Notes under the pieces: generated by a model | What the model saw: only the letters and a program-made list of their open reading frames with translations | Told to the model about the DNA's origin: nothing | The model's database searches: none | Program-made: the position numbers and the translations under genes | IMG/VR virus record: IMGVR_UViG_3300021364_000042 | Coordinates: 1-45,991 of that record | Origin: a virus | DNA length: 45,991 nt | Direction: 5' to 3' (one strand) | Shown: positions 4,045 through 42,434 of the stretch, piece by piece | Layout of the letters: each line of letters opens with the position of its first letter | Numbering within the stretch: the first letter of the stretch is position 1

Positions 4045-4086
4045 TGTTTATAAGGATCCTAGCAACAGACAAAGGTCTTTCTTGTT

Positions 4087-4093: not shown

Positions 4094-4099
4094 GCCATT

Positions 4100-4120: not shown

Positions 4121-4129
4121 GCTGCATCT

Positions 4130-4342: not shown

Positions 4343-4344
4343 GT

Positions 4345-4611: not shown

Positions 4612-4625
4612 AGTATCTAATAATA

Positions 4626-4654
4626 ATTATAATCAACCATGTAAGGGTTGAGAA
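4626..4654 (-). promoter_or_regulatory. Weak sigma70-like promoter candidate
   Basis: The 52-base gap before the 88-residue gene holds TATAAT (4626-4631), with TTCTCA (4649-4654, four of six matches to TTGACA) 17 bases upstream. The gap is very AT-rich, the implied leader is short and no ribosome site follows, so this is a weak call. Confidence 0.2.
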
Positions 4655-4663
4655 ACAGAGGCT

Positions 4664-16937: not shown

Positions 16938-16944
16938 TATTTAG
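16938..16944 (-). promoter_or_regulatory. CTAAATA motif overlapping a stop codon
   Basis: CTAAATA on the minus strand contains the TAA stop of the 529-residue gene and ends 21 bases before the next ATG (16916). It resembles a late-promoter core, but its overlap with an obligatory TAA raises the chance of coincidence. Confidence 0.3.
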
Positions 16945-18543: not shown

Positions 18544-18550
18544 TATTTAG
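18544..18550 (-). promoter_or_regulatory. CTAAATA motif overlapping the giant gene's stop
   Basis: CTAAATA on the minus strand includes the TAA stop of the giant gene and ends only 13 bases before the ATG at 18530. That leaves almost no leader for a transcript starting here, so a promoter role for this gene is doubtful despite the motif match. Confidence 0.22.
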
Positions 18551-21500
18551 TTGTCATCGAAGATCTGGACGGGACTGAAGTTACTGATTAAAGTAGCACC
18601 AGTCTGGACGCTCAGGATAGCAGACAGTGAGTAGACAGGTGTTGCTCCCGTTGCTGTGATAGCAACGCGATATTCATCACCATCATCAGACTGGACAGTA
18701 TTGCCAGTATTGTATGTTGCCTGGTTAGCACCAATGATGTTATTCCAGGTTTGAGTGCCATACTCCTTCTTCTGCCACTGATAGTTGAGGGTCTCGTTAT
18801 TGGAAACGGTAGCAACCACAGTGAAGGATGCTGTAGTGCCCTGGTTAACGGTCACGTTGACAGGATCCTGATTGATTGCGATTGCGCCAGGCGTGACAGT
18901 TGTGCCACCATTATATTCGCTACCTTCTCCCGCGAGGATATCGAAACCGCCGTTGACAGGTGTGCCTTCGGGTGGTGTGAAGTCATCGGGGACCTCAGTA
19001 TCAACCGCAACTACGGCTGCGGTATAATCAACACCTGCTTGCTTAACATCAATTCGAGCAACACCCATTTGTGCCCTAATACGAGCGTCAAATCCAGTAG
19101 AGGAAATAACGTCCACATTTGGTTGTGAGGTATAACCATCACCAGGCGAGGTGAGAGAAGCACCTGTGATTTCACCAGAGGTGATATTTGCAAGGGCTTG
19201 TGCATTACGACCCTTGACAGATCCTGTGTATTCAAATGTGATCAGCGAGTTGGAAGACTCAATCAGAGCAACCTCACGATTAAATTCTTCACCTTCGATA
19301 AACAGTTTGTCTCCAGATTCAATTGGGGGCACAACAGTTGCAGCGATCACGTCAGCGTCACTACCAATGTAGGAGAATCCAACAAAGGTGCTTCCTGCGC
19401 GAGGCACTTCAGCAAAGATGATTCTAGAACCAACGATCTCGTATGCGACACCAGGCTCTTGAATAATACCGTTGAGCGAAACAATAATGTTGTTTTCTGG
19501 TCTAATCACGTTAGAGGAAACACCCTCAGTCAATGTCAGTGAGTAGAAGAGACCGTCACGCTTCAGGTTGAAGCTTGATCTCAAGGAGTCAAACTCGAAA
19601 CTAATATCATCCAGTTGACGGAGTTTACCAACGTAGTAACCGATAAATTCGGATCCAATTTCAGGAGCCTCAGAGAAACTGATCTTATCTGAGAATGCAA
19701 CATAGGAGTTGTTACCACCAGGAGGTTGCAGCACACCATTGACCCAGACGAGCAGGTGACCTGCGGGATCGGGGAAGTATGCTTCACCATTAGCAATTGT
19801 GAGATCAAACTGTGTTTGCTCTCCATCAAATCCACGGAAGTAACGCTCAACACGACCCTCCAGAGTGCGTGCTTCAGAAACAGCACCGCCCCATCCATAG
19901 TCGGACTTGATGGTCATGTTATCGACAAACTCACCAACAACATTTTCAATCCAGATTGTCGCTGTAATTCCTTGTTGCTCGATTGAAGCCACACGCCCGT
20001 AGGAAGAATATCCAGTGTCCGTATATGAGTTAACTCCTGCATAAATTGTTGGGAAGTTAGATCCAATATCAATCTTACCAATATTATTGGTAGAATTTGT
20101 CAATTCACTAATGTCGGCACCCGTGCCAACAGGAATCAGATTAGCAATAAACAGACGATGGATACCATAGTTGGGATCCTGAGGATCTGCGTCCAGTCCG
20201 TTGATGTATTTGGTTACAGTTGCACGGAATCCAGGATTTTTCTCTGTTGTGCCTTGCAGTAAGGATACTTCATCACCAACACGGAAGGTATCGGAAATAC
20301 CTGTGTCGATAATTGCAGCACCCAATTCCAACTGATAAACATTAGTGCCATGGACATACTGATTAAGTTGCAGTTGTGTGCCAGAAATGCCCTTGACTTC
20401 CAAGATGTAGTCAGTGACGTTACCATAGATAACATCGCCAGCATCCCAGGAGTTTTGAATAGTCTCAACATCAATCGTGATACGACCGCCAGTGTTACCT
20501 GTAAGAGATCCAGACTTATTGATGTAGTTAGACATATATGCTTCTGCTGTGGAGTTGGTGCCAAAGAACCACTCACCCGTAGCAAAATCACCCAGAGTTA
20601 CATCAAGCAGGAATCTATCTTCAATAGCAGCGCCGATAGTTGCAGTCGCACCACTGTCAACACCTTCAATAACATCACCAGCGTTAATTGTGCCAGCAAC
20701 AGTCATGAGTTTTACAAATGAGTCCCCATCTTCATTTGCTGGAGTTGTTTGCAGCACATAACCATTGTTTGCAGTAGCACCTTGGACAACTACTTGCTCA
20801 CCATTAGTAAATTGATCGTATACACCCAGGACAGATGAAACATTTGTCAGAGGATAATACTTATAAACCTTGAAGATTTCTGCTTCATTGTTTTGGACTC
20901 TAGAAACTTCAGCAGTTGCCTCTGAAGTAGATCCAACCAGCACATCTGCAGGATTGAAACCACCTTGGATTGGTGTATCCGAGGGATCTTCTGGGAAAAC
21001 GGTGGTTGCTCTATTGATGCCACTACGACGGACTACAGCAAAGAGTTGAGCACCAGTATTCAATGTATCTGCTTCTAAGAGTTTGAAGCGACCATCGTGG
21101 ATATAGTGAGCACCAATTTCAAACCATGTAGGTGTAGCTGTAATGCAATAGAAGTAAGTTTGACCGTCCAGACCAGCAACAGAAGTTTCTGAAGCAGGAA
21201 TATACTGTAGAATATCACCACGACGGAATTGGTTTCCACGGTTAATTCTGATGCGATACTCAGCACGATCGAAACCAACATCAACGACGGGTGTCAGAGA
21301 CACCAGAGAAGGATCGGTATTGTAATCAACACCCATCTCATAGGTGGTGCTCAGATTTTGGAGATCGCTAGATGCAATAAAGGTTACACTTGCTTCTGTT
21401 GGGAATTCGGATCTTTCCAGAGCAAACTCTAGTGGGTTGAGAGAAGAGTCGATAATAAACTCTGCTGCCTCTTGGAACCAAGGGAATCTTTCACCATCAC

Positions 21501-24500
21501 CAACATATGTGGTATATGCATCCCAACCTGGATCTTCCTCAATTTGATACATTGCACTCTTGATGAATTCTCTGCAGCGAGTGAGAGCAAAGATCAAGTG
21601 CGATCTTATTACATCTTGGAATGCAATGAAGTTACCTTCACCATCAAACCATGTTTGTGCAAGGCGGAATGCACCAGCGTTACCACCAGTGATCATGTCA
21701 TATCTGACCGCTTTCAGCACATCATAGGCAAAAGAAATATCAACATCGGTTGTGCCGTAATTAGCAGTAGTTGCATCAAGGACTCTGGTGGCAATAGCAT
21801 CACTATTGAAGAGAATGCGATTAGCAACAATCTTCTCATTGTGCGTACCACCACCAAGAGTGTTGATCATGATTTCAAACAGAGTATCAATAGCAGATTG
21901 CTCATCATGGCAAGTGCCAAACTGATACTCGGTATTGTTGTTGTCTGCAAAGGTTTTAGTGACAGTATCTAAGTAATTGACATTATTAACTGCAGCCTCA
22001 GTAATAGTATCAATGATGATGCCCATCAAAGTGTCAATAGAAGAAGCGACAGTTGCACATGCTTGATTCCAAGAGGGACCTGCAGCATTATCATAAAGGA
22101 TTGTAAGATCTCTATTTGTTGAATCGGGGGTATACTTAACAGGCCAGATCATTGGCAACTCATAAGCATTGGTTTGACCAACGTTTGCTGGATTCTGAAT
22201 ACCATCAGTAACAATCTGCATCAGACTATCAATTCTAGCCTCAATATCTGCAGTTTCCAATCCAGTGTAGTCTGGATCAACCAAGCGAGCACGATAGTAA
22301 TCAAGATCACTCAGAGTATTCGCTCCGTAAACCTGCGTCCAATTATCGTTAAATCCGTTAGGTTCACCCGATACAGTGTTACCTGCAGAGGCACCCCAAC
22401 CACCTGTGTAGTTGGCAGAAGCGATCCAAGTGAAGGACCAGCGTCCATCCAGACCACCAAGACCAGTAAACTGATTTCCAGGAGTTGTTGCTTCACCAAC
22501 AATATCGCCATCAATAAAGAGTCTTACACGACCAGCACCAGCAGCAGCAGTGCCACCAATACGAATTTCCCAGGCCAACTCGTGTTGATTACCATCGAAG
22601 TATTGTGCAAGATCAGTAATGGGAATATCGAGCAGAGCAAGACCTGTATCTGTATTAGTTGCACCACCAGCAACTGCAATGTTGCTACCAGCACGAAGTC
22701 TCAGATAGGTGCCATTATCTCGGATACCAAGGAATGCGCCATAGGGCTCATCTGCTCTAACCGTGCCACCTGCTTCCCACAAGAGTGCGTCTTGAGGAGT
22801 TGTTGTATTAGGCAATTCGACAACTGCACGGAAAACAGCATCATCTGTAGGATCAACACCCGTTGCAGAATTAACATTATTTTCAATGTTAGTAGTGCCA
22901 GGAGTAAAGGATCTGGTAACAAGATTCTGGAATGATGTGATGTCAATACCATTGTCAAGATCAGACAAACGCAACTGATTGGTTGGTTTCTTAGTTGCAT
23001 CAAAGAATCTCTGAGCAACACCATAACCAGCATTATTAGTAATTACCTGATCCTTCATTGCACGTTTTGCAAGATCTCGTGCCCTTTCAAGAATCCAAAC
23101 AGTTTCGGTTGCTTGAGAGGTAATATGCTCAAGATTGCCGCTGTAATTCACATAGAATTCGGCACAATAGTGCATCCAGTTATCACCACCATACTTCAGG
23201 TTGAAGATCAATGCTCTCAGGATATCTGTGACATCATGGATGCAGTTGATCGATCCACCAGGGATAACCAGTGAGGGATATTGTTGCTGACCATCATAAA
23301 CTGCCTGCTCAGCAATATAACGAATGTTGCCATCAATTGCATCTCCAGTATCTCTATAGTCAATGGTGTATGGGTTTGATTCATAAGTTTCAACTGGGGT
23401 GGTGTCGGGATCATTACCTTCAATATAATCTCTACCAAAACCATTACGCATTGTTACTGTAAGAAGATCTCTTACAATCTTGTAGACAGTTACAGATGCT
23501 TCCCACTCATTTTCAATATGTCTTAGTGAATTGTTTTCTGGCTCAATGTAGAGTTCTGCAGCATCCCATGTCCTTTCATTGCAATTATGCAGCATGTCGT
23601 GCAGCAAGACATCAATGATATCTTTGACATCATCCTCGCAATTAACAGACCCGCCAGGAATCTCAAATGTGGCATACTTGGAGAGGTCATTCATGATAGC
23701 GACTGCTTCCTTAGCAATCAGATCTTTATTTGCCTTGATTGATGTGGCAGCATCATAGAAGTGATTCCAATCTTGTGCGGTATTCTGAGGCCATGCTTTA
23801 GTATCAATGGTAATAGTATCATCGCGATATGCTGCTCTACTGGTATAGAGAGGCTCATAGTAATCACCATTCTGCACCCAAGCAGGCACGCCCAACTCAG
23901 CAATTGCAGTATTTGGAGAAATCAGCATATTATTTGCTGCTTTCTGACACAAGAATTTGGTAAATTCAAATGCATCTAGCATTGGATTCAACTCATGCTC
24001 AACATGCAGGATATTATCCTGAGAGTCAAGATAGAAGTCGATTACATTCTTAACGTTATATGTGCCTCCTGTAACAAGGTCTGCAATTACACCAGGAATA
24101 ATATATTGCTTGATGTCTCTTTCGCAGACAGACTCACCACCACCAGGGATGTTAAGGAAGTTGGTTTCTGTGCCGCCAAGATCAATGGTGTATTTGTTGG
24201 TAATATAACCAACGACTTCTTCAGCAATGTAATCGCGGTTTTTCCAGATGAGGACACCAGAATCCTTAAATCCTTGACCTGTAGGTGCAATGACTTGAAG
24301 AAGATCATCAATAAGACCACGGATCTCATCCAGCACACCCTGTGTGGCAGGAGATGCAAAATTGTTAGGAATCCTCAGTCTCTCTGTATAAACACCAGTA
24401 AGATCTGTGCTGGTAGTAGTCAATACATCGTTAATGATGTCGCCAACTTTATCCCAGGTGTAGAGAGTTTGCAGCACCTCATTACCAATGTAATTCAACT

Positions 24501-27500
24501 CGCCGCCCTTAGTCAGGTATGTGCGAGCGGTGTAGAGAGTATGGTAGTTACCACCTTCTCTAAGGTCTTTAATGATTGCACCAATAATATAGTCCTTAGT
24601 ATCACGCAAACAGTAATTAGTGCCACCATAAGAATTATTAGCAGGATCATCTCCAGGCATAATGAAGTCTGGGAATTCTGCCTTCATCAAACCGACTGCT
24701 TCTTCAGCAATCCATGCATCATTCAATTCAATGATGTTTGCACATTCTCTTTGCTCAAATCTACCAAGATCAACATCTTTGATAATTAGAGACTTGGTTT
24801 CATAATCAATAACCTTAGTGGTTGCTGCAGAAGTCCTAGATCCTGTAAATGTAGCATATGTTTCAGTAGTGGACAGGATAAAGGGTGCTTCACCATCAAG
24901 ACCCAAGACAATGTTGGCATTGGTATAGTCAACTTGTGTAGGTGGAGTAAATGCCTCAGTATGCTCTGCTTCAAGGTTATTGATGTAGAAATTGTCTACG
25001 AATCCATCAAAACCATTAGTGCCGTTAAAATCAGCACCAATAGTAACCTTCGTATACAGATAATCATTAGTATCAGTATAGTTGCTACCAACTTGGACAC
25101 CATCAACATACAACTGCAGGACGTTTGTGCCCCTAACCAGTGAAATATGATGCCAAGTAGTTGCACTTAAAGTGCCACCAGAGATCAGTTGGGTAGTCCC
25201 GTTGTAAACTCTCAGAGTGGTTCCATCCAACACCAGACGCAATCCAACATTTGCATCGAGACGACGCAAATCAACTAAGTTTTGAGTGCCACTTACTGCA
25301 TTTGGATACCACCAACCTTCAATAGTGAAATCATTAGCAGTGCCAAACGCATAATCATAAGAGTCTGCAGCAACAAGATATCCAGCAGAAGGAATCTTGA
25401 TTGACTTGGTGCCAGACAATTCTGCTTTCTTGGTAATAACACTCTGACTGCAATTGCCCTGGTTTGCCAGGGTAGAGTTAGTCAACAACTCTCCATATTG
25501 CAGAGTGCCTGTGATGGGACCAGCAAAGATCCACTTCAGACCAGAATTAACACCTTCCGCTGCAAATATCGCTCCAGAAGTAACGCCTTTAATTTGATTG
25601 CCTGTGACAAACAGACCAGAAGACTTATCCTGATAACCAATCTTAATTGTACGGACAGTCTCACCATCAACAAAGGTGCCATCGCTGATAGATGCGAGAG
25701 CATTCACGTTGTTGAGATTACCTGCAGTAATTGCAGTAGTTGCAATATCTGTCAGGGTTGCAATGTAAGACTGGACATCAGCACAGTTGTTGATATCTTG
25801 GTTATTGCCATTTGCATAGTTTGCATCATACAGTTGACCAGGAGCAGTGCCACCATAGGTCACAGGATCGTTGAGAATTGCCAGATCCTTGTCATACAGC
25901 AGGTTGTTGATTGCCTGATATGAAAGATCACGGACTTTCTCAAATGCAGTTACAGAAGGACCTTCTTCACCGAGGAGACCATCACTGATGGGATTACCTG
26001 ACGCATCAAAGTAGAATCTAGTGAATTCAACAATGTTGTAGTTGCCACCCTGAGAAACATCGTTTGCCAGAGCATCAACGAAGTAACCAATGTCACGACG
26101 ACACTTCTCTTCGTTGGGGGAGTATGTGCCGACAGACTCATCGGGCAACTCGGAAAGAGTGCCGCTAGTCATTGCCTCATCAATAATCTCCCACAGAGTT
26201 GTAATAGCATCTTGGACATCAGAGCATCCTGCAGGATCAGTGTTGTCGGTGTTAGTGCCAGCAGTAGGATAATCGTCATTAGGTGACTGGTCGGCAGTGA
26301 CAGTCAGATCTTGATATGCATCGTATGAGGTGCCTGCATCGGGACCATTGACCTGAGTGTAAGATCCGCTCAGATTGTTGGTGATTGCAAGAAGCATGTA
26401 ATCCTTGACTTTCTCGTATGCAAAACGAGTTTCTGCTGCTTGCAGATTCACATAGATCAGAGCACCATTCTCATCAAAATAGTATGAGATAAACTTACGG
26501 GTGTATCTGTTACCACCACGATAAGTATCAATTGCCAGAGCATCCATGAAGTGACCCAGGTCACGCTTACACTTAGCAGGATCGGGGACCACCAAAGTAG
26601 GATACTGGGTGATCATATCATCATATGCCTTAGCAGCGATATAGTCCTTATTAAGGACAACGAAACGATATGCGTCAGAATATCTGCTCCATTCGTTAGT
26701 TTGGATATCACCAGGGAAGTAGAAGTCGGGATGCTCAACAGCAATCTGTGCTTCAGCAAAATCAATCAACTCTTGCTTGTTTTCTCTGATGCGAGTTGCA
26801 GCATCATAGAATCTGTTTCCAGCAGTGCCGTGGTATGCAGAAGTTGGGTTACCGTAGTAAACTCTTCTATTTTGAATCTTATCACCTTCAGAGAAGTTGC
26901 CACCTGTCAGATCAGTGTATGTTACTTCAGTGCTTCTAACTTCTTCAAAATCGAGGAAGTCTGCATTGATACGCTGGTCATCATTATACAATTCTGTAGG
27001 AGTGATAGATGATTGAGAAATATTATCCAGAATAATGTTGGGATTGGTAATGCTAACCAAACGCTCAAACAGCAGACCATAGAATGTGGATCCAGGGTTG
27101 ATCTCCAACTCTGTCACAACATCTCCAGTCACAGGATCAACATATGGTGAGATGAATGTAATCTGACCAGCGATCTTAGAAGATGCTGAGTAGATAAACT
27201 CATTCAGTTTCAGGTCAAAAATACCAGTTTCATACTTAGCGGTGCCAGAAGTCTTACTGACTACCAGACGATCAGTGATCACACCATCGACAAGGTTAGT
27301 CTCTTCAATAATTGCAGTATCGCCTTCCATATTGGTGATAGATTCACCAAATTCAAAGATGGTATCGGTATTGATCAAATCAACAGACTGGACCAATGCA
27401 GAGAAGAGAGTTCCACGAGTAATTTCTTCATTCAATTCAAATGTGCCACCAGAGACGTTAATAACGTCAAGATGGTTTGTGCCAGAATCAATAACAGTTG

Positions 27501-30500: not shown

Positions 30501-33500
30501 CACCAACAGATACCTCATATACATTCAAGCGATACCAAACTTTCTGTCCGACAGCATACAAACGATGAGGCAGCCATTCAGGCATGTCATTACCGATGTA
30601 TTGAGGACGTGGGTAAGGATGTTGCAGTAGATCGATATCAAACTTACCTGCTTCACTAATATAGGACCAGTTGATAACACCATCGCTAGCAGCCCCAGCA
30701 GTATGTGTAGGAGCAATTGTGCCTGATGTGCCAGCACCTTGCGCTTCATAAATGTTTCCTGAGTAATAAACTCGGTCTTGTGCATTATATGCTGTTGCTG
30801 CTTCCCAAGGAGATTCTGGCTCTTCGCTATCGAAGTATTCACCAGCAATTTCATTGACATCTCCCGCAGTTGTGCGGAATCTATCAGTATTGTTGAATGT
30901 ACCAAATACCTTACCAACTTCATAGGTTGTGCCAACACCAGGATTCTGCAAAGTCCCTTCGGGGACATTTACAATTGTGCCGAATGCAGTTGTCGTGCCA
31001 GCAGCATTAAATTGTTGCAGAATAGACCCTTTGGTGAGTTTTACATCTTGATTGAAAGTAAACTCCTTGACATTATCAATTTTTTGATACAGTGCATCAC
31101 GCATGTAGAATTTGTTGATGACATCTGCTTCAATAATGAATTTCTTACCCAAAGGTGATGGGACAGTAGATGTCTTCGATGCGAAAGAATCCCTCTCACT
31201 GCTAAATGCATATGTGCCAGGATTCATCGTAGAGAAGGTCTGAGACATATCCAAGATCTGCAGACCACCAGGACCCACTTCCCAAACACTCAGAGCGGGC
31301 ATATTGAGAGTATACCAAGATGTCAGGGTTGAAGCATCAGTAAATGAGATGCTTCCATGATTTCTGACATTTGTCAGTGTGTAAGTGTTTCCTTGGTTGG
31401 AATGTAGTCTATCAAACTTAATTAGAGTGATATCGGAAATATCAGTTGTGATTTCAATCTCTTCAGTAGGCAGCGTGTAGTTACCTGTAGTGAAAGGTGC
31501 ATCATCATCAATAACAAGGTCATCAATGTGACCAATGAAGCAATTTGTAGCACCAGGGGCAGATTGTGGTCCTGCCAGTGACAAATCATCAAGGAAAATG
31601 TCATCAGTGCTCTGGAAAGAGATCTGCAGATTGCCATTGATGAATACTTCATAACGATACAGACCCAGAGACTCTTCACGCTTTTGGAAGGTTACATGGA
31701 CCCAAACACCACCTGCAAAGGAAGTCCAGTTAGTAGTAGTTGTCGAAGTTGCTACTTGGACATCATTCACATATAGAAGGACACGCTCATAGTTGGGTGA
31801 CGTTGCATCACCATCAATTGACATTCTGATGGGGACACCAGTAGTAGGACTGATGTCAAAGAAAACAGGTTCGTGATTTGTAGAATGGGCAGTGCCATTC
31901 ATTGCAAACCATGCTCTAACACTCCATTCTGTACTCTCTAATCCAATATCAGTATATGCAACAGGTGCAACGGCATCCAAACGCATTGATCCAGTGCCAA
32001 AGCGATAGATCGATGTATCATGTGCAGTATTTGCAGGATCTGAGTAGACAATAGTTGCCAGATCTTGCTTAGTGAAGTCAAGACCTAAATTAGCATCATT
32101 GAAACGATAAGATGCGAGTTGATCGCTCTGACGACGGTCAGCAGCGATAATGCAGTCGCCAGAGTTGTCAACAACGTGTTTCTTTGCTTGGAAACCGATA
32201 TTATCATTATCTGCAACCTTTGTTTCACTAATGATACTGCCATCATACTTGAGATACTCAATGAGAGCATATCTTTCGTCTTGAGCAGCATCAACGTCAC
32301 ATACTAAGGTGTAGTTGCCAAATAGATCGACAGAAATACCAGCGTGCTTGATAGCACGGAAATCGCCAGATACTGTTATAGTTTTTGTCCATTCCCAACC
32401 ACTATTTGCAGATGCATATGGGAATTTGCTGATCTGGACCTTATCAAACTTGGCTGCGGCATTATTAAAGACATTCCAGACAATAACAGCATCACCATAC
32501 TCATCAAATGCCATTTCTGGGTCTCTGACAAATCCACCAACCACAGGGATCTGACGGATATAGTCAATCTCGATATTTGCACCATCGTAGAAGAATACAC
32601 CGAAGATGCAGTCATTATTTTCTTCGTTTTCGCCAATAAACAGGAAACGATCGTCTGCAATCCACTTAATCTGTGAAAGTTTCTCAGATCCGTCTTCAGA
32701 CGCAATTTTACGCTTCTCTACAAGGTCACCTTCAACATTACACTGAATGACCCACATATCATAAGGATCTGGTGAGTTAGAATCAGTATAACCTGCCAGA
32801 TAAATCTTTTTCTCTTGGTCTAGGGCAATAGAGGTAATATAATCACGTCTAGTGCTACCAGAGATACCACCAATTGCTCTTTGCCACTTCAGAATACCTT
32901 CAGGAGCAGCAGCATTGTTAAATCCAGATTCATACAGACCCATCCAGATGTCTGGGTTGTAGACATCATTATCAGGACTATATGTTTGGCCTGCTACATA
33001 AATGAGGTCGTTTTCTTGTGACTCATCAAGAGTCATTCTCATGAATTCAGCACGCTTTTGGTTGGCATTCTGAGGAATCAGAGTCCGCTCCCAGATCAGT
33101 TGACCCAGGTCATCAAACTTAGCAAGGATTGCTGCTTGATCTCCATCAGTCTCAGTAACACTACCGCAAATATAGGTATAGCGTTTAGCAGACTGGACCA
33201 TATCGTTGATGGTCAGTTTACCTGCTGCTTCCAGATAATCTGCAATCCAGTAACGAGTTTTCTTAAATTGCTGAGGGTGAGAAACACGAATCTGAGGAGG
33301 ATTCTCAGGATCATATCCATTACCAGAGTTAATGATATCTGCACTCTGGACTTGTCCAGTATTTTGCAGATTCAAACGCAATGCAGCATCTTGACCTTGA
33401 GTTGTAATGACTTCAAAGGTAGGAGGAATATCAGCGTTATATCCAATACCTTCTTGTAGGACACGAATACGCTCGATACCAGCAACAACTTTTACTTTGT

Positions 33501-36500
33501 AGAGTTTGTTGGTGTTATCGGTAATAGGACGTGAGTTGACAATAATAACATCCTGTTGACGCAACTCGTGCTCAACATCGGTAGTGATAACACCGTAAGG
33601 ACGATCACCAATCATCTCCTTGGTGTAACCAAGGATAGTCTGACCCTTAACAGATTCGATAATTGCAGATGCACCAAATCCACCAGTGCCTTCGTTGTCG
33701 AAGAAAACAGTATCATTAACCTGATAAGACTCACCAGGGTTTTCAATCACGAAACCATCAATCTGAGCATTTTCAAACTGAGTGGTTGTTTCAACTTCGA
33801 TGTCAACTCTAGATTCTTCAGAAACCTGAGGGAAGTAATCATAAATCTGCAGAGTTGCCTCTTCAGACATCTCAAGGATTTCTTGCTGCTCCAAAGCATC
33901 AATCAGACCATCATTGTTGCTATCTTGGATCTCAAAGATGATGGGATATCCTTCGATCTCAGTCGTCAGGACATCTGCTTCTTGGTTGGGTTGACGATCA
34001 ATGTCAATATCAACGTCAACATAAGGATCTCTATATCTTACAACGTCAGAAGGAATGTTTTCCTGTGTTGCTGTCTGGCTGAAATTCCATTCATCTGGAA
34101 GTGAATTAAACTGAGGTCCAACAATGTATGGGAATTCTGCAATACCAGCATCTGATGCATCAATAGTAATGAAGTATGCATAGGTGCCATCTGGGAATTC
34201 TGGTGTCTTACAGAATCGTCCGTTATAATTGTCCAGGTCACCAGATTGGAAATCATAGGTATAATCGTCAACAAATGATCCTGCAGGGTATTCATTGATG
34301 GATGGACCATCTACACGAGCAGGGTTTGGATTGGTCGCTTCATCATAAACAACGTTATCTTTCAGTTTATAGGAAGTACGCAGTCTTCTAATGCCGCTGT
34401 TTTGGTCAGTGGGATCGATATAACCATATGGACCATAAATGGGGTTACCATCAAACGCCCAACCGATGATTGGGGAGTGCTTGTAGTTTGACTCAAGCTC
34501 TTGGAATTGTTGAGTTACAGGATTAAGGAATACGTTATCACCAACAACATAACGCAACTCTTTAGGATCGCTAAGGTGAGCAAACTCACCACCAAACTGG
34601 TTGTTATATCCAGTAAAGACATATCCTCTAGAGAAGTCATACTTATTGACAAGATCATACTGTAGGTTTCTATTCCACTTGAAGACATCGGGGGTGAATG
34701 TTGCCAATTCACCAATTGATTGGAGTCTGACTGTGGTATTGCCTTGGGTATAACCAACACCTCTGTTGGTGATGGTCACAGACAGCACACGACCCTTATC
34801 TTCACCAGTTGTGCCAATAGTTGCAATACCAATAGCACCAAAACCATCACCATTGATGATTACGTTAGGTGCAGTAGTATAACCACTACCTGAGTTAATA
34901 ATAGCGATAGACACAATACGCCCATTGATCACAATGGGTTGTGCCAGAGCACCTTCACCAGAGTTGACTCTAACTTCTGGGTCTGAAGTATATCCAGATC
35001 CAAAGTTGGTGATGTTAACACCAGAGATAGGACCACGGACGTTTGCAATTGCAGTTGCACCACTACCGCCACCACCAGTAATAGCAACGCTAGGTTGTGA
35101 AGTATATCCACTACCTTGCTGCTCAACCAGAATTCTAGTAACACGACCACCAGTGATAACTGCTTGTGCAGTTGCACCACTACCACCGCCACCAACAATA
35201 GAAACCAGAGGGGACTCGGTATATCCACTACCCTGATTAGTAACAGTAAACGATGTCAGACTACCATTAACAACAACTTCACCAGCAGCACCTGTGCCAC
35301 CACCACCTGTGATTTCAAGGTTTGGTTTATTACCAGCATCATAATTTACACCAGGATTTGTTACTTCGACTTTAGTCAAAGGTCCAAACTGGACATATTC
35401 TGAAGACTTATATGACCAAATTGATACCCCATTGATCCAAGATCCAATGGGTGTATTTTCCTTAACGTCTTTACGCTCAGAGATAGTCTGGACGTTTCTG
35501 GGGAATCTCAGCAATTTACGCTGGTTGCCAGGAATTAGTGCTGATCCAATGAAAGGACCAATTCTGTAGTTGGGCAGACCAGATGCTGCCACATACACAT
35601 AATCATCATTAAAGAAGGAGTTTTGGATGTTGGTTGTAAACTCACTTACAACTTTATTGATAGATGCTTGATCAGACTTACCTCTATTAAGGTCAACCGA
35701 CAACAGAATATTACCCTGAGGGATAATATCAGTAGGTGTATTCAGTTGATATGAGAAAGTAAGAGGGTCAATACGAGATGTGACTGTAAAGGTGCCGTTA
35801 TATACAACAGGGTTTGCACCATAAATTGTCACCTGATCGGAAACCAACAAACCATGAGGATTATCACAATAAACAGTTGCGGTCTGATTATTAACACCAC
35901 CAGACTCAATGCGATCAACTTGAATTAGTTTTTTGACATTATACAACCAAGAAGACAGTTTTTCATCGATTGCTGTCGATCCAAGGTTAGCAACTTTCAG
36001 TTTGTCACCTTGAATATAATAAGATCCAGTGTCATTCAGGACGGTAGTGCCTGCCTCAGCAATACCAAGGACACGCAGTTTACATTCTTGTGCTGTGCCT
36101 CTATTGACATATACAAAAATGTCAGATTGGACTACAGTGCCAGGATCCCAGTCCTCAACAACACCATTTCTGCTTCTGGTGCATTCAATAAACTGGTTGA
36201 GTGATTTTTCTTTATATTGGACCTCTTCTTCGTCGTTAATCCGAATTGTGCCGTTTCTAGCAGGCCAACCAATGGTGGAGTCAACAGTAATGATTTGACC
36301 ATCAGTAGTCAGAGGCTCTACAAGAGTAGTTTTGTAAGGAATCTTAAATTCACCAGTCAGAGTTTCCTCTGAGATTGCCAATTCGTAAATTGTGTCAGTA
36401 CCTTCAATAATAGTAATGACATTTTCAATTAGAGCATTTGCTGCCTTGATATTCAGGTCAACAGGATCGGCATACTGATTCAACTCAGAGTCGATCAGGT

Positions 36501-38775
36501 TATTTGGGTCACCTTCGATCAATTCAGCACGCAACACTGTGTCAACCACCCAGGTTGCTGCAGAAGGACTAATAACCTCATCTTTGGGGTAGAAGATAGA
36601 AATATCTTCGCCAAATAGGATCTTAAACAGATATTGAGTAGCAAGCTCGGTGCCTTTAGAGATATAGAAGTCCTTAATGGTCTTAATGACCTGGACAGGG
36701 TTGACTTTACTGAAGTCAACGTCAATAGTGGGAAGATACTGTCTTCTAAACTTATCAAAGACTTCTTTGAGGAACAGTGAGTCTAAATTGGTGACAATTG
36801 CTCCTGCAGGGTGTGTAGACTGCCTCAGAGCAGACTCACCAGCATAGATTTCGTTGTGGAGTTGATCATATCCAACAGGACCAGATACACCACGAGAAAT
36901 ACCCAAGAATGCTGAAGGTGAGTAACCCTGACCACGCTGAATGATATCAAAACCTGTAACTTCGTCAAAACCAACGTCTACAGATGCTCTAGCAGCACGG
37001 GGCTCGGCAATGTAAACTTTAGGGGGGAATTCGGATGAATATCCCTCACCAAAATTAACGACATTGATATCAGTGATCTCACCATTGAAGATAGTTGCAA
37101 CTGCTTCTGCTCCAGTGCCCCCAATAGGTTCGCCATAAGCATCCTTGCGATCATCAACGATATAAACTGAAGGTGCATCGGTATAACCTCTTCCACCAGT
37201 CAACATTTCGATATTAGTGACAGATCCTGATGCAACGGTCACATCAAGCACCTGTGCGCCCACAGGTTGGATAATACGAGCCCTGGGAGGTGTTGTATAC
37301 CCTCTACCTCTATTTGTGATCAGGATTTCGTAGACCTGACCATCTTGATTGATTCTAGAAACTGCTGCAGCGTTGATACCTCCTTCTGGAGCGGGATCAA
37401 TGTAAACAATAGGAGGATTGGAGTATCCTTGACCAAATTCAGTTACAGCAATACTATTGGCGACCAATCTACCTTCAGAGTCGATCTGAGGTTGAGAGAT
37501 TTGAGCGCCTGAGGGGTTTCTGAATGTAATGGCAGGAATAAAGTCATATCCACTACCAGAATTCTCGATAGTAATGGAGTCAACTTGTCCTGTAGTGTCA
37601 TCAACAGTCAGAGACAGTTTAGCAAAACTACCACTTGCATTTGAAGGCTCTGCAATAACAGGAATGGGTGGGTTGTATGAAGAGTAACCCTGACCACCAT
37701 CAATAAGTTGGATATTCTTAATACCACCAATCAAAGACTTGGCAGTTGCACCTTCGCCACTCTTTGAAATAACAGTAACTTTTGGATTGAAGTCCAAACG
37801 ATATCCACTACCACCAGACTTGGCAATCAAGCGGTTAATGGATCCACTGGGGTTAACTTGGACAACTGCACTTGCACCAGATCCATAAGAAGGTGCAATA
37901 TACTCTACAGAGCGGATGTTAATTACATCTGATGCACCAAGTTGCACATCAAAGATCAGTTTGTCTTCAAATACTGAATAATCTTCATAAGGTGTGAGAA
38001 GTTTTCCGTTTCTATTGACAATCAGACCAATATCTGATGTAGGACGGTATGCCTGAGTATTAAGACGCATAGGATACTCATAGCCACCTTGCCATTCTTG
38101 GTAGGGGGCTTGATCCAAGGTCAGAATATCCTGGTTTGCATAACCAACCAGATAAATGATCTGAGTGAAGTCTGAGTTGTCAACACCAGTCCTTTGACGG
38201 GGTGGAGTGGTGAAACGAATCTCATCACCCTCAAGGTAATAGTCAACCCCAGGGATATTGAAGTAATTGTAAGTGATTACAATGAGGTGCTCAGCACTTG
38301 GAGGTGAAGTAGGAGTGCCGAGGAAACTTAAAGGGAAAGATGTCCTTACACCATCAAACAGTGTAAAAGGATTTTCTAGTTGTTGTTTCTTCTTATCAAA
38401 CTGAGCGATAGATACGCCAGGAGTGATGATAGCGTCAGGACCACGAGTTACAGACTCATAATACATGACCTCATTATCAATCATGATGGAGCCATTCTGC
38501 TCCAAGAAACCATCGATCGATTCTACTTCCAGTTTATCTTCGTAGATACCTACATCAGAAAGTAGTTGTGTTACGCTAGAAAGCTGCCTTGTATTATACT
38601 CGTCTAAGTCGAGATAATTGAGAAGGTTGTTGAGAATATCATACGGTCTGCCTGTTTTCTCTTGAGATTTGTAATACTCGAAGAGAAAGTTGACAAACTG
38701 ACGATCTTCTTCCCTGATAAACTCAGGTAGTTGACCTTCGACACGATCAGATACGTTAATGTTTTTGTTTTGCAT
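18547..38775 (-). CDS. Giant mosaic virion protein (6742 aa) in the gene 7 position
   Basis: A single 20.2 kb frame directly after gp6. Approximate order of parts: N-terminal region (EFIREEDRQFVNFLFEYYKS); GGxGY repeats 297-620; helical segment 665-730 (VIKTIKDFYISKGTELATQY); GGxGY 1128-1345; YHYH-like domain without the YHYH tetrad 1432-1556; propeller-like repeats 1865-2225; LamG-like 2261-2425; two WxxxxxYxxGxxVxYxxxxYE modules 2657-2784; GGxGY 3119-3325; NGVIQAPG unit 3674-3719; a helical C-x2-D repeat family 4056-5747 interrupted by LamG-like domains near 4454-4616 and 5309-5502; two LVWVNGVLQ/IVSLNGIIQ units 6322-6475; Ig-like C-terminus 6625-6738. T4 order makes a gp7-like wedge role plausible for the N-terminal part, with the rest projecting as adhesive or spacer modules. 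No clear similarity to T4 gp7 is visible, so no gene name is given. Confidence 0.9.
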   Translation of the reverse strand: MQNKNINVSDRVEGQLPEFIREEDRQFVNFLFEYYKSQEKTGRPYDILNNLLNYLDLDEYNTRQLSSVTQLLSDVGIYEDKLEVESIDGFLEQNGSIMIDNEVMYYESVTRGPDAIITPGVSIAQFDKKKQQLENPFTLFDGVRTSFPLSFLGTPTSPPSAEHLIVITYNYFNIPGVDYYLEGDEIRFTTPPRQRTGVDNSDFTQIIYLVGYANQDILTLDQAPYQEWQGGYEYPMRLNTQAYRPTSDIGLIVNRNGKLLTPYEDYSVFEDKLIFDVQLGASDVINIRSVEYIAPSYGSGASAVVQVNPSGSINRLIAKSGGSGYRLDFNPKVTVISKSGEGATAKSLIGGIKNIQLIDGGQGYSSYNPPIPVIAEPSNASGSFAKLSLTVDDTTGQVDSITIENSGSGYDFIPAITFRNPSGAQISQPQIDSEGRLVANSIAVTEFGQGYSNPPIVYIDPAPEGGINAAAVSRINQDGQVYEILITNRGRGYTTPPRARIIQPVGAQVLDVTVASGSVTNIEMLTGGRGYTDAPSVYIVDDRKDAYGEPIGGTGAEAVATIFNGEITDINVVNFGEGYSSEFPPKVYIAEPRAARASVDVGFDEVTGFDIIQRGQGYSPSAFLGISRGVSGPVGYDQLHNEIYAGESALRQSTHPAGAIVTNLDSLFLKEVFDKFRRQYLPTIDVDFSKVNPVQVIKTIKDFYISKGTELATQYLFKILFGEDISIFYPKDEVISPSAATWVVDTVLRAELIEGDPNNLIDSELNQYADPVDLNIKAANALIENVITIIEGTDTIYELAISEETLTGEFKIPYKTTLVEPLTTDGQIITVDSTIGWPARNGTIRINDEEEVQYKEKSLNQFIECTRSRNGVVEDWDPGTVVQSDIFVYVNRGTAQECKLRVLGIAEAGTTVLNDTGSYYIQGDKLKVANLGSTAIDEKLSSWLYNVKKLIQVDRIESGGVNNQTATVYCDNPHGLLVSDQVTIYGANPVVYNGTFTVTSRIDPLTFSYQLNTPTDIIPQGNILLSVDLNRGKSDQASINKVVSEFTTNIQNSFFNDDYVYVAASGLPNYRIGPFIGSALIPGNQRKLLRFPRNVQTISERKDVKENTPIGSWINGVSIWSYKSSEYVQFGPLTKVEVTNPGVNYDAGNKPNLEITGGGGTGAAGEVVVNGSLTSFTVTNQGSGYTESPLVSIVGGGGSGATAQAVITGGRVTRILVEQQGSGYTSQPSVAITGGGGSGATAIANVRGPISGVNITNFGSGYTSDPEVRVNSGEGALAQPIVINGRIVSIAIINSGSGYTTAPNVIINGDGFGAIGIATIGTTGEDKGRVLSVTITNRGVGYTQGNTTVRLQSIGELATFTPDVFKWNRNLQYDLVNKYDFSRGYVFTGYNNQFGGEFAHLSDPKELRYVVGDNVFLNPVTQQFQELESNYKHSPIIGWAFDGNPIYGPYGYIDPTDQNSGIRRLRTSYKLKDNVVYDEATNPNPARVDGPSINEYPAGSFVDDYTYDFQSGDLDNYNGRFCKTPEFPDGTYAYFITIDASDAGIAEFPYIVGPQFNSLPDEWNFSQTATQENIPSDVVRYRDPYVDVDIDIDRQPNQEADVLTTEIEGYPIIFEIQDSNNDGLIDALEQQEILEMSEEATLQIYDYFPQVSEESRVDIEVETTTQFENAQIDGFVIENPGESYQVNDTVFFDNEGTGGFGASAIIESVKGQTILGYTKEMIGDRPYGVITTDVEHELRQQDVIIVNSRPITDNTNKLYKVKVVAGIERIRVLQEGIGYNADIPPTFEVITTQGQDAALRLNLQNTGQVQSADIINSGNGYDPENPPQIRVSHPQQFKKTRYWIADYLEAAGKLTINDMVQSAKRYTYICGSVTETDGDQAAILAKFDDLGQLIWERTLIPQNANQKRAEFMRMTLDESQENDLIYVAGQTYSPDNDVYNPDIWMGLYESGFNNAAAPEGILKWQRAIGGISGSTRRDYITSIALDQEKKIYLAGYTDSNSPDPYDMWVIQCNVEGDLVEKRKIASEDGSEKLSQIKWIADDRFLFIGENEENNDCIFGVFFYDGANIEIDYIRQIPVVGGFVRDPEMAFDEYGDAVIVWNVFNNAAAKFDKVQISKFPYASANSGWEWTKTITVSGDFRAIKHAGISVDLFGNYTLVCDVDAAQDERYALIEYLKYDGSIISETKVADNDNIGFQAKKHVVDNSGDCIIAADRRQSDQLASYRFNDANLGLDFTKQDLATIVYSDPANTAHDTSIYRFGTGSMRLDAVAPVAYTDIGLESTEWSVRAWFAMNGTAHSTNHEPVFFDISPTTGVPIRMSIDGDATSPNYERVLLYVNDVQVATSTTTTNWTSFAGGVWVHVTFQKREESLGLYRYEVFINGNLQISFQSTDDIFLDDLSLAGPQSAPGATNCFIGHIDDLVIDDDAPFTTGNYTLPTEEIEITTDISDITLIKFDRLHSNQGNTYTLTNVRNHGSISFTDASTLTSWYTLNMPALSVWEVGPGGLQILDMSQTFSTMNPGTYAFSSERDSFASKTSTVPSPLGKKFIIEADVINKFYMRDALYQKIDNVKEFTFNQDVKLTKGSILQQFNAAGTTTAFGTIVNVPEGTLQNPGVGTTYEVGKVFGTFNNTDRFRTTAGDVNEIAGEYFDSEEPESPWEAATAYNAQDRVYYSGNIYEAQGAGTSGTIAPTHTAGAASDGVINWSYISEAGKFDIDLLQHPYPRPQYIGNDMPEWLPHRLYAVGQKVWYRLNVYEVSVGGVTTTTPPVHTSGDVSDGTVTWTFVETREPISDYARFMEYDLGNHYQVRIEEIHPGSQYIVGDVVSLRENNIELADDEKSVRIVGFPSVKKIRVTAQLEKDIIRTGGEARTDHVYCTSNSPHFFNVGDIIFTEGFQGTQFNGSFFIDQVLGTREFTFAIRDTATDDPAFNANAIASVNIYAKHPTLIFTRDHQYIFDLSDTSNFGYYLSFSQDNQYKLEYSFNNIVREGTPGINAAGSNAPFVKFSVLGDVTNISYYFDPSRTGDDSPVGSNSFIDVIKTPYDGRFTISEIVDDFSFKFPLEKEPEKNSAEVITDEFDQPYSFYSTTSTRAIGPINTIKLVSAGGFYQKLPIISDIASFRQIEKIIINDGGTEYAPGVYYDVPIAGDGEGAKATVTVELDDEVGSGTITEITVTDPGKGYTTAVIDIDAIPGILGATLAGSGASASVVIPAEGTGASVFLTGKNIGKIKRLKNNEFGFGYSHDYTLRPEITFPVNLQLFNTSILSEIKITDPGSGYTSTPAVVIEGGGGTGAEAVALVRNNRLSEILIKNPGAGYSSEPTVTLKSEFNYVVNLDLNYLQFNFPHGITTGAAIQFRADDVGSTVGELPKPSSAGLTTLVAGQIYYAIAGNENSLENDQIRFALTPQSAAAGDYITFLTQGAGRQVLLTEVFGGKAEAIVETSRFLEGETVFQGPNIEQATATGTVSTNTGWQIGPKILKIVDYDGDWLEGEKVTGTISKASGLIDNLSIARGVLNIGSLTRTPGRFIDDVGKPSEIVQKIQDSFFYQNFSYVIKSETPISNWKTQVLENNHAAGFALFGQLQLTGGKDVSGRKIGTEFTKQVNINNYSNVNQITSFGAAQPIYTDFNNTEVLFRKKRLTSSEEILTSIVKKLDDISGSFNGIEKQFPITVEGEQVIVQQNQLMITLNGVIQAPGDSYQVVGGNLVFSEAPRPSSKVTYRILEVTPTPIYRINLYSGQAGIPNYGIFPTLGQQVQGANSDAFATVIDSGTNHLDVINVSGGTFELNEEITRGTLFSALVQSVDLINTDTIFEFGESITNMEGDTAIIEETNLVDGVITDRLVVSKTSGTAKYETGIFDLKLNEFIYSASSKIAGQITFISPYVDPVTGDVVTELEINPGSTFYGLLFERLVSITNPNIILDNISQSSITPTELYNDDQRINADFLDFEEVRSTEVTYTDLTGGNFSEGDKIQNRRVYYGNPTSAYHGTAGNRFYDAATRIRENKQELIDFAEAQIAVEHPDFYFPGDIQTNEWSRYSDAYRFVVLNKDYIAAKAYDDMITQYPTLVVPDPAKCKRDLGHFMDALAIDTYRGGNRYTRKFISYYFDENGALIYVNLQAAETRFAYEKVKDYMLLAITNNLSGSYTQVNGPDAGTSYDAYQDLTVTADQSPNDDYPTAGTNTDNTDPAGCSDVQDAITTLWEIIDEAMTSGTLSELPDESVGTYSPNEEKCRRDIGYFVDALANDVSQGGNYNIVEFTRFYFDASGNPISDGLLGEEGPSVTAFEKVRDLSYQAINNLLYDKDLAILNDPVTYGGTAPGQLYDANYANGNNQDINNCADVQSYIATLTDIATTAITAGNLNNVNALASISDGTFVDGETVRTIKIGYQDKSSGLFVTGNQIKGVTSGAIFAAEGVNSGLKWIFAGPITGTLQYGELLTNSTLANQGNCSQSVITKKAELSGTKSIKIPSAGYLVAADSYDYAFGTANDFTIEGWWYPNAVSGTQNLVDLRRLDANVGLRLVLDGTTLRVYNGTTQLISGGTLSATTWHHISLVRGTNVLQLYVDGVQVGSNYTDTNDYLYTKVTIGADFNGTNGFDGFVDNFYINNLEAEHTEAFTPPTQVDYTNANIVLGLDGEAPFILSTTETYATFTGSRTSAATTKVIDYETKSLIIKDVDLGRFEQRECANIIELNDAWIAEEAVGLMKAEFPDFIMPGDDPANNSYGGTNYCLRDTKDYIIGAIIKDLREGGNYHTLYTARTYLTKGGELNYIGNEVLQTLYTWDKVGDIINDVLTTTSTDLTGVYTERLRIPNNFASPATQGVLDEIRGLIDDLLQVIAPTGQGFKDSGVLIWKNRDYIAEEVVGYITNKYTIDLGGTETNFLNIPGGGESVCERDIKQYIIPGVIADLVTGGTYNVKNVIDFYLDSQDNILHVEHELNPMLDAFEFTKFLCQKAANNMLISPNTAIAELGVPAWVQNGDYYEPLYTSRAAYRDDTITIDTKAWPQNTAQDWNHFYDAATSIKANKDLIAKEAVAIMNDLSKYATFEIPGGSVNCEDDVKDIIDVLLHDMLHNCNERTWDAAELYIEPENNSLRHIENEWEASVTVYKIVRDLLTVTMRNGFGRDYIEGNDPDTTPVETYESNPYTIDYRDTGDAIDGNIRYIAEQAVYDGQQQYPSLVIPGGSINCIHDVTDILRALIFNLKYGGDNWMHYCAEFYVNYSGNLEHITSQATETVWILERARDLAKRAMKDQVITNNAGYGVAQRFFDATKKPTNQLRLSDLDNGIDITSFQNLVTRSFTPGTTNIENNVNSATGVDPTDDAVFRAVVELPNTTTPQDALLWEAGGTVRADEPYGAFLGIRDNGTYLRLRAGSNIAVAGGATNTDTGLALLDIPITDLAQYFDGNQHELAWEIRIGGTAAAGAGRVRLFIDGDIVGEATTPGNQFTGLGGLDGRWSFTWIASANYTGGWGASAGNTVSGEPNGFNDNWTQVYGANTLSDLDYYRARLVDPDYTGLETADIEARIDSLMQIVTDGIQNPANVGQTNAYELPMIWPVKYTPDSTNRDLTILYDNAAGPSWNQACATVASSIDTLMGIIIDTITEAAVNNVNYLDTVTKTFADNNNTEYQFGTCHDEQSAIDTLFEIMINTLGGGTHNEKIVANRILFNSDAIATRVLDATTANYGTTDVDISFAYDVLKAVRYDMITGGNAGAFRLAQTWFDGEGNFIAFQDVIRSHLIFALTRCREFIKSAMYQIEEDPGWDAYTTYVGDGERFPWFQEAAEFIIDSSLNPLEFALERSEFPTEASVTFIASSDLQNLSTTYEMGVDYNTDPSLVSLTPVVDVGFDRAEYRIRINRGNQFRRGDILQYIPASETSVAGLDGQTYFYCITATPTWFEIGAHYIHDGRFKLLEADTLNTGAQLFAVVRRSGINRATTVFPEDPSDTPIQGGFNPADVLVGSTSEATAEVSRVQNNEAEIFKVYKYYPLTNVSSVLGVYDQFTNGEQVVVQGATANNGYVLQTTPANEDGDSFVKLMTVAGTINAGDVIEGVDSGATATIGAAIEDRFLLDVTLGDFATGEWFFGTNSTAEAYMSNYINKSGSLTGNTGGRITIDVETIQNSWDAGDVIYGNVTDYILEVKGISGTQLQLNQYVHGTNVYQLELGAAIIDTGISDTFRVGDEVSLLQGTTEKNPGFRATVTKYINGLDADPQDPNYGIHRLFIANLIPVGTGADISELTNSTNNIGKIDIGSNFPTIYAGVNSYTDTGYSSYGRVASIEQQGITATIWIENVVGEFVDNMTIKSDYGWGGAVSEARTLEGRVERYFRGFDGEQTQFDLTIANGEAYFPDPAGHLLVWVNGVLQPPGGNNSYVAFSDKISFSEAPEIGSEFIGYYVGKLRQLDDISFEFDSLRSSFNLKRDGLFYSLTLTEGVSSNVIRPENNIIVSLNGIIQEPGVAYEIVGSRIIFAEVPRAGSTFVGFSYIGSDADVIAATVVPPIESGDKLFIEGEEFNREVALIESSNSLITFEYTGSVKGRNAQALANITSGEITGASLTSPGDGYTSQPNVDVISSTGFDARIRAQMGVARIDVKQAGVDYTAAVVAVDTEVPDDFTPPEGTPVNGGFDILAGEGSEYNGGTTVTPGAIAINQDPVNVTVNQGTTASFTVVATVSNNETLNYQWQKKEYGTQTWNNIIGANQATYNTGNTVQSDDGDEYRVAITATGATPVYSLSAILSVQTGATLISNFSPVQIFDDN
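21535..26620 (-). repeat. Helical C-x2-D / GGN repeat family inside the giant gene (7 units)
   Basis: Seven diverged units of about 70 residues share C-x2-D, then D-x3-GG[NT], an aromatic pair with x-x-G, and a helix ending in A-x-x-N. Examples: KCKRDLGHFMDALAIDTYRG (Cys near 4069), KCRRDIGYFVDALANDVSQG, YCLRDTKDYIIGAIIKDLRE, VCERDIKQYIIPGVIADLVT, NCEDDVKDIIDVLLHDMLHN, NCIHDVTDILRALIFNLKYG, and a last unit (AYDVLKAVRYDMITGGNAGA) lacking the C-x2-D. Most are preceded by a P-GG or PGD turn and a helix with NKxxIAxEAV. Confidence 0.8.
28800..29425 (-). repeat. GGxGY repeats, third block of the giant gene
   Basis: Residues about 3119-3325 carry four units such as IIINDGGTEYAPGVYYDVPI, ITVTDPGKGYTTAVIDI, EIKITDPGSGYTSTPAVVIE and EILIKNPGAGYSSEPTVTLK. 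These are separated by glycine/alanine-rich turns (GGGGTGAEAVALV). Confidence 0.8.
34735..35395 (-). repeat. GGxGY repeats, second block of the giant gene
   Basis: Residues about 1128-1345 hold the most regular units: VTNQGSGYTESPLVSIVGGG, VEQQGSGYTSQPSVAITGGG, ITNFGSGYTSDPEVRVNSGE, IINSGSGYTTAPNVIINGDG and ITNRGVGYTQGNTTVRL. The period is about 40-45 residues. Confidence 0.88.
36910..37890 (-). repeat. GGxGY repeats, first block of the giant gene
   Basis: Residues about 297-620 carry roughly eight units with the core G-x-GY, for example IAKSGGSGYRLDFNPKVTVI, LIDGGQGYSSYNPPIPVI, VTEFGQGYSNPPIVYI, LITNRGRGYTTPPRARII and EMLTGGRGYTDAPSVYIVDD. They are more diverged than the second block. Confidence 0.82.
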
Positions 38776-40905: not shown

Positions 40906-41319
40906 TTATGCCTTCTCTAAGAGAAACTCGATAGTTTGGACAACAGTTTCACCAACAATGGTATAATCAAGCTCAACTGCAATAGCATTTATATCAGAAT
41001 CATCGGTGAGAGTCACTTTTGTGACTTGTATTCTAGGTTCTAAGCGTTTTAAGCAGTTTCTAATTTCCCCTTCTATTTCGTCTGCACTAAAAACATCCCA
41101 AGGCTCAAACAAAAGACCCTTAATTCTAGATCCAATCGCAGGTTGGAAAGGTCTTTCACCAAGATCAGTCAATAAAAGGTTTCTAACAGCTTGCTTAATC
41201 GCATTTTCATTTTTAACTATGCCAAAATCGCCAGTAGATGGATTAGACTTGAAAGAAACTGACAAGTCTTTATATCCTCTACTGACGTATTTTTCAGATC
41301 TGAATCTGTAAGATGCCAT
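40906..41319 (-). CDS. gp25: Baseplate wedge protein gp25
   Basis: A gp25/GPW-family baseplate wedge protein of 137 residues, close to T4 gp25 (132). Typical motifs are present: AIKQAVRNLLLTDLGERPFQ, IGSRIKGLLFEPWD, and the EPR motif (CLKRLEPRIQVTKV). In T4, gp25 sits at the inner baseplate and its EPR motif contacts sheath and wedge partners. The start overlaps the upstream stop by one base (TAATG), with AAAGG six bases before it, so translation is probably coupled to the 62-residue gene. Confidence 0.96.
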   Translation of the reverse strand: MASYRFRSEKYVSRGYKDLSVSFKSNPSTGDFGIVKNENAIKQAVRNLLLTDLGERPFQPAIGSRIKGLLFEPWDVFSADEIEGEIRNCLKRLEPRIQVTKVTLTDDSDINAIAVELDYTIVGETVVQTIEFLLEKA

Positions 41320-42406: not shown

Positions 42407-42434
42407 ATTATAGCAGATTTACTTCATGAGGCAA
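42407..42434 (-). promoter_or_regulatory. Sigma70-like promoter candidate
   Basis: TATAAT (42407-42412) with TTGCCT (42429-42434, four of six matches to TTGACA) at a 16-base spacing. It overlaps the end of the PAAR-like gene and lies 23 bases before the ATG of the 49-residue gene, which has a good ribosome site. This would allow host-type transcription of the small genes independently of the late promoters. Confidence 0.38.

Follow-up and report, generated by a model that had tools for sequence, protein, structure and literature searches.

Phycobiliprotein-like repeats in the giant gp7-type virion protein of T4-like cyanophages

A viral contig of 45,991 nucleotides (IMG/VR record IMGVR_UViG_3300021364_000042, analysed over its whole length and hereafter called the window) contains a reading frame of 20.2 kb that holds a family of cysteine-bearing repeats. 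This locus raises two questions: whether so long a frame encodes one virion protein, and what the repeats are.

The giant frame, its neighbours and its family

The frame is open from its ATG through 6742 codons without an internal stop (reading-frame check), confirming the single uninterrupted gene proposed in an earlier, sequence-only reading of the window, which did not mention that it lies on the minus strand. The minus-strand gene order is gp25, gp6, the giant ORF, a YHYH protein (529 aa) and a gp9/10-N-like protein (494 aa), and continues with a 624-aa protein, gp8, a 2438-aa protein (DUF4815) and an Mtd_N-type fibre that is cut by the window end (Table 1). The giant ORF is thus directly downstream of gp6, in the T4 gene-7 position, and falls between gp6 and the gp8/gp9 region as it does in Kyanoviridae isolates.

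Several neighbours have features of their own. The YHYH protein adjoining the giant ORF (16941-18530) combines a YHYH domain (E 9.5e-36) with a weak Ig-like stretch; both modules are shared with the giant ORF, which suggests shuffling between neighbours. The gp9/10-N-like baseplate protein (15432-16916) ends in a cupredoxin-like region at residues about 418-494 (PF00127 E 0.0014, 19.5 bits against a cut-off of 21.2), whose best PDB matches were pseudoazurin and amicyanin (E 0.5-1.6) and whose His...Cys-x2-His-x2-Met pattern resembles a type 1 copper site. A 177-aa protein (42424-42957) is placed where P-TIM40 has its PAAR protein; a Pfam scan found no PAAR domain in it.

We compared the N-terminal region with T4 gp7, a relationship raised in the sequence-only reading for residues 1-750. 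One segment, residues 699-729, aligned with T4 gp7 730-760 at 39% identity over 31 residues (hhalign P 1.3e-5, prob 81); sequence comparison found no match to T4 gp7 in the rest of residues 1-750. A sequence search of the PDB with residues 1-750 likewise returned no match. We use the label gp7 because of the 31-residue match together with the gene position.

As a whole gene, and in its size and mosaic composition, the giant belongs to a known, widespread cyanophage family (Kyanoviridae; PHROG 701). The 6136-position model of phrog_701 ('virion structural protein') was matched in order by six consecutive pieces of the protein, which run from model position 4 to 6122 with gaps between them. Intact isolate copies were found in S-WAM1 (6737 aa), P-TIM40 (7351), P-RSM6 (8573), S-SZBM1 (6619), S-RIM8 (6395 aa, annotated 'gp7'), Syn33 (6376) and ACG-2014d (6817), and these sit between gp6 and the gp9/gp8 region. 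The P-RSM6 ortholog (13908-39629), still larger than the window protein, is one 8573-residue gene annotated merely as a hypothetical protein. The protein does rank among the larger phage proteins, as had been suggested, but its size is the usual one in this virus family; since many isolates have copies of 6.4-8.6 thousand residues, we rejected giant size as a novelty.

The S-SZBM1 ortholog, annotated 'baseplate wedge initiator', was identified by mass spectrometry in CsCl-purified virions (724 kDa, 71 peptides, 13.5% coverage; PMC9146016), in agreement with the proposal of a single giant virion protein in the gene-7 position. We give next to no credence to an assembly artefact or to separate products, in which the long frame would join several genes or contigs: internal repeats might mislead assembly and the window is one metagenomic contig, but intact collinear genes occur in several isolate genomes, a mis-join is very unlikely because the complete isolate genomes of S-SZBM1 and S-WAM1 encode collinear uninterrupted proteins (96.3% and 95.3% of the window protein, ~56% identity), the repeat region is present in 76 further viral contigs (single-protein query), and the S-SZBM1 product was seen in virions as one 724 kDa entry.

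The domain list predicted from the letters of the window was borne out, with GGxGY-type repeats, a YHYH domain, a propeller repeat, LamG-like domains, cysteine repeats and an Ig-like end all found in the giant protein.

Table 1. Features of the giant protein and neighbouring baseplate genes in the window
Feature	Residues	Window position	Strand	Basis or remark
Giant gp7-type virion structural protein, 6742 aa		18547..38775	-	phrog_701; collinear with S-WAM1/S-SZBM1
Conserved N-terminal 750 residues	1-750	36526..38775	-	480 phage records contain relatives, almost all from cyanophages
Segment DFYISKGTELATQYLFKILFGEDISIFY, the sole segment alignable with T4 gp7 (730-760)	699-729	36589..36681	-	hhalign
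YHYH domain	1424-1540	34156..34506	-	PF14240 E 1.3e-29
SBBP beta-propeller repeat (one)	1972-2000	32776..32862	-	PF06739 E 1.1e-4
LamG-like domain 1	2274-2424	31504..31956	-	PF13385 E 4.9e-5, under Pfam cut-off
Repeat 1	4032-4135	26371..26682	-	motif C4069-K-R-D; structural domain to about residue 4203
Repeat 2	4184-4293	25897..26226	-	motif K-C4225-R-R-D-I-G-Y
LamG-like domain 2, between repeats 2 and 3	4479-4600	24976..25341	-	PF13385 E 1.3e-16
Repeat 3	4676-4787	24415..24750	-	motif C4722-L-R-D; structural domain residues 4673-4830
Repeat 4	4836-4951	23923..24270	-	motif C4884-E-R-D
Repeat 5	5006-5111	23443..23760	-	motif C5046-E-D-D (Arg lost)
Repeat 6	5140-5243	23047..23358	-	motif C5178-I-H-D (Arg lost)
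Repeat 7, degenerate	5650-5744	21544..21828	-	without Cys/Arg/Asp motif
Ig-like C-terminal domain	6631-6723	18607..18885	-	PHROG 613/3995/4069 (head/tail Ig proteins)
gp6 baseplate wedge protein, upstream neighbour of the giant ORF		38781..40904	-	phrog_219, PF21379
gp25 baseplate wedge protein		40906..41319	-	PF04965, phrog_261
gp8 baseplate wedge protein, downstream of the giant ORF		11984..13519	-	PF09215 E 2.6e-18

The cysteine repeats and their relation to phycobiliproteins

An iterated profile detected seven repeats of ~105 residues each, spanning residues 4032-5744. Cysteine is rare in the giant protein (28 of 6742 residues), and six of these 28 are the first residue of a C-x-[RDH]-D motif with which a long helix begins; in most repeats a GG turn comes next. 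Complete Cys-x-Arg-Asp is present in repeats 1-4 and missing from repeats 5-7. The number of repeats varies among the giants, from three in S-RIM8 and Syn33 to seven in the window protein and nine matches in P-TIM40.

We built a profile of 43 repeats (alignment A1) and searched it against all PDB sequences. Phycobiliproteins made up all of the best 60 matches listed (best E 1.8e-7), and the repeat Cys and Asp fell on phycobiliprotein Cys84 and Asp87. In a comparison of A1 with 22 phycobiliproteins, hhalign aligned 101 of 111 columns (prob 97.1, P 6.9e-11), whereas 60 column shuffles of A1 reached at best prob 1.4 and the reversed profile 0.2. Seven whole cyanobacterial genomes yielded 2-10 profile matches apiece; the loci read were phycobiliprotein genes, with a few weaker matches left unread. 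When the repeats were scanned singly against Pfam, 13 of the 43 matched PF00502 and no other family was matched by more than one. The best window repeat scored 21.8 bits, under the Pfam cut-off of 22.2, while some relatives exceed it (S-CAM1, 24.5 bits); because single repeats usually score just under the cut-off, the domains stayed hidden.

We also predicted structures with AlphaFold2 without templates, using alignments whose rows came only from the window and viral contigs. The model of residues 4673-5246 had a pLDDT of 76 (mostly 84-93 in its first repeat), and that of residues 4015-4345 a pLDDT of 77 and a pTM of 0.76. Compared with PDB phycobiliproteins, repeat 3 in the first model gave Z 17.5 (rmsd 2.0 A over 136 residues, chain 35-177) and repeat 1 in the second gave Z 16.0 (rmsd 2.0 A over 135 residues), to be read beside the VIA-align notes that helical models may reach Z 13-14 without kinship. 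For both models, the best 50 PDB entries listed were all phycobiliprotein or phycobilisome entries. Foldseek assigned a probability of 0.95-1.0 to nearly all phycobiliprotein rows, yet with E-values of 0.16 or worse. Structure prediction of giant-protein segments, already envisaged in the sequence-only reading, thus modelled repeats 1 and 3 with the phycobiliprotein fold.

Most of the structural alignments begin at phycobiliprotein chain residue about 28-35. The X/Y helices of phycobiliproteins serve alpha-beta assembly, and a start near chain residue 30-35 indicates that these N-terminal helices are missing from the repeats. We therefore class the repeats as a phycobiliprotein-like domain and not as phycobiliproteins. 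Repeat 1 takes its sixth helix from the 'CSDVQ' segment, which immediately precedes repeat 2, so the two repeats may have one helix in common.

The cysteine repeats very probably share both homology and fold with phycobiliproteins, the fold models having been matched for repeats 1 and 3. The 'new-looking' cysteine repeat family seen in the letters of the window is real; its kinship with phycobiliproteins was missed in that reading. That an unrelated four- to six-helix repeat came to resemble phycobiliproteins by convergence we judge highly improbable: helical bundles do yield spurious structural matches, and the Pfam scores lie just below threshold, but the sequence profile and the fold agree with the motif register (Cys84/Arg86/Asp87, GG) and with the cyanobacterial hosts, and the shuffle and reversal controls were clean.

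A maximum-likelihood tree separated the phage repeats, as a single group with support 100/100, from every phycobiliprotein sampled; across the closest phages the repeats grouped mostly by position. The tree, in which the bilin-binding globins sampled for comparison were those of the phycobilisome, is compatible with a single recruitment followed by old duplications; the donor subunit of the phage domain was not identifiable from these repeats and sampled phycobiliproteins.

Motif conservation, lyase genes and the question of pigment

We next consider whether the repeats might carry bilins. The CXRD motif is frequent in phycobiliproteins, where its Cys forms the covalent bond to the bilin and its Arg and Asp contribute hydrogen bonds (PMC10151467). 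Across 605 repeats from 84 phage loci, Cys was found in 91% of aligned cells, Asp in 90% and Arg in 50% (with Asp in 23% and His in 14% at the Arg position). By repeat position, CxRD occurred in 55/75 sequences of repeat 1, 76/76 of repeat 2, 80/81 of repeat 3 and 75/84 of repeat 4; repeat 5 carried CxDD (92/94), repeat 6 CxHD (76/121) and repeat 7 none. Among the repeats read, which were part of each genome's set, P-SSM4 and P-SSM3 had lost the Cys, and syn9, P-RSM4 and S-SSM5 had no CxRD. A tblastn search with four repeats retrieved 359 phage records, 358 of them Synechococcus, Prochlorococcus or 'Cyanophage' and one a marine single-cell virus; judged from these matches, the repeats appear to occur essentially only in cyanophages.

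The reading that we lean towards is that a phycobiliprotein or a related bilin-binding globin supplied the fold, which would serve solely as a helical spacer or assembly module, free of pigment; Cys and Asp would persist for packing or through slow decay. In favour of this reading, some lineages, and repeats 5-7, have lost Cys or Arg, the X/Y assembly helices are absent, and the repeats sit alongside further binding domains of a structural protein. It fits less well with the full or near invariance of CxRD in repeats 2 and 3 (76 and 81 sequences) despite a mean column identity of 55-61%, or with fibre-type phages keeping Cys in 31/31 full repeats (CxRD in 23/31). Such near-invariance and constancy are more than a pure spacer would need.

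To look for partner genes, we ran two profiles, that of the repeats and Pfam CpeT (T-type phycobiliprotein lyase), over 29 genomes of phage isolates and a viral contig of 187 kb. Of these 30, 23 had repeats; a CpeT-family match was present in 22 of these 23 and in none of the seven without repeats (T4, P-SSM2, S-SM2, S-SSM7, S-CRM01, Pelagibacter HTVC008M and Sinorhizobium phiM12). The sole repeat-bearing genome without a CpeT match was S-SKS1, which has one CxDD repeat. The association (Fisher p 3.9e-6; 2.8e-4 for cyanophages alone) is confounded by phylogeny: the scanned genomes are related, so that few truly independent events underlie it. Many of the phages whose repeats are carried by gp7 have a short, weak CpeT match, and in three phages the match passes the cut-off only by summing neighbouring pieces; P-SSM4 was given as lacking cpeT in an earlier survey (PMC2984593). 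Bilin reductase genes were considered as partners of the repeats and rejected, as they showed no association (6/15 with repeats, 2/7 without).

In S-PM2, Syn1, S-RSM4 and S-CAM1 the gene that holds the repeats is a giant fibre gene, of 3693-4017 aa in the cases with a completely read frame; 0.7-1.5 kb upstream of it, on the same strand, is a full-length cpeT. Syn1 and S-PM2 share a conserved gene order, in which a 2OG-Fe(II) oxygenase stands between cpeT and the repeat-bearing giant 'short tail fibre'. The RefSeq record of S-PM2 (NC_006820, 160000-178500) annotates many tRNAs inside its 3779-aa repeat-bearing fibre gene. ARAGORN found no tRNA inside that gene and nine at about 163.4-165.3 kb, so the RefSeq tRNA coordinates look misplaced.

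A doubtful but consequential alternative to the unpigmented module is that the CxRD repeats are functional biliproteins, a bilin being joined to the repeat Cys during infection. The bilin would come from the host or from phage ho1/pebS/pcyA, its attachment might be helped by the phage CpeT-type lyase, and on baseplates or fibres it could make the domains more stable, act in light sensing or quenching, or adjust adsorption. The conserved Cys and Asp, the presence of the covalent-attachment motif CxRD in many repeats, the distribution of CpeT-family matches and the placement of cpeT just upstream of the repeat-bearing fibre genes all speak for such a pigmented virion. In addition, Prochlorococcus lacks standard phycobilisomes, and the benefit of bilin genes to its phages has been stated to be unclear (PMC2984593). 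Against it, P-SSM4 and P-SSM3 have CpeT-family matches yet no Cys in the repeats read, and syn9, P-RSM4 and S-SSM5 lack CxRD in theirs. T-type lyases act on Cys-155 (PMC2327270), but it is Cys-84 that the repeats retain. An S-type lyase is found in Cluster C phages (PMC10665884), yet S-CRM01 is among the genomes without repeats. Finally, bilin reductases do not follow the repeats, and the lyase link has the phylogenetic confounding noted above.

Proposed role and comparison with known systems

We are fairly confident that the giant ORF is best explained as a gp7-type baseplate-wedge protein of a T4-like cyanophage with a phycobiliprotein-like repeat array. Its N-terminal part would dock in the wedge beside gp6, and the long C-terminal mosaic (GGxGY, YHYH, LamG, Ig-like) would project as a host-contact or spacer arm; a role in host contact or baseplate extension is thus a plausible inference. 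Phycobiliprotein-like domains (bilin-binding-globin fold) would have been recruited once into cyanophage tail proteins and then multiplied, and the repeats would act at least as folded structural modules. With complete Cys-x-Arg-Asp kept in 4/7 repeats, some may still bind bilin.

Phage cpeT, ho1, pebS and pcyA are usually read as boosting the host antenna. Were baseplates or tail fibres pigmented, with repeats loaded by the phage's own CpeT-type lyase, which we regard as unlikely, these long-debated bilin genes would have a target in the virion and not in the antenna. A phage-encoded acceptor with a bilin-attachment motif in the same genomes offers a concrete, testable alternative to the antenna-boost view. 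Even without pigment, hundreds of sequenced cyanophages would be building their tails in part from a host light-harvesting fold. We found no report of phycobiliprotein-like domains in phage virion proteins in the open-licence papers searched, and as far as that literature shows, the repeats as phycobiliprotein-like virion modules are new.

T4 gp7 and the cyanophage giant have in common the position after gp6 and perhaps one 31-residue motif, and the giant is 6.5 times as long. The Kyanoviridae giants, such as S-WAM1 AOV61558, S-SZBM1 UNH61325 and S-RIM8 gp7, agree with the window protein in length, gene position and domain order; the four closest share 55-57% identity with it over 88-96% of its length, and we see no essential difference between them.

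With the phycobiliproteins (PF00502: phycocyanin, phycoerythrin, allophycocyanin), the repeats share the CxRD site, the GG motif and a predicted fold that covers the chain from about residue 32 up to its C-terminus. The repeats differ in occurring as several copies in one virion protein, in having no X/Y helices, and in the loss of Arg or Cys from some copies. BBAGs and photoglobins, which are bilin-binding globins outside the phycobilisome, belong to the same superfamily and carry the same type of motif (CxRD, CxQD), but unlike the virion-borne repeats they are free-standing cellular proteins encoded near bilin synthesis genes (PMC10151467).
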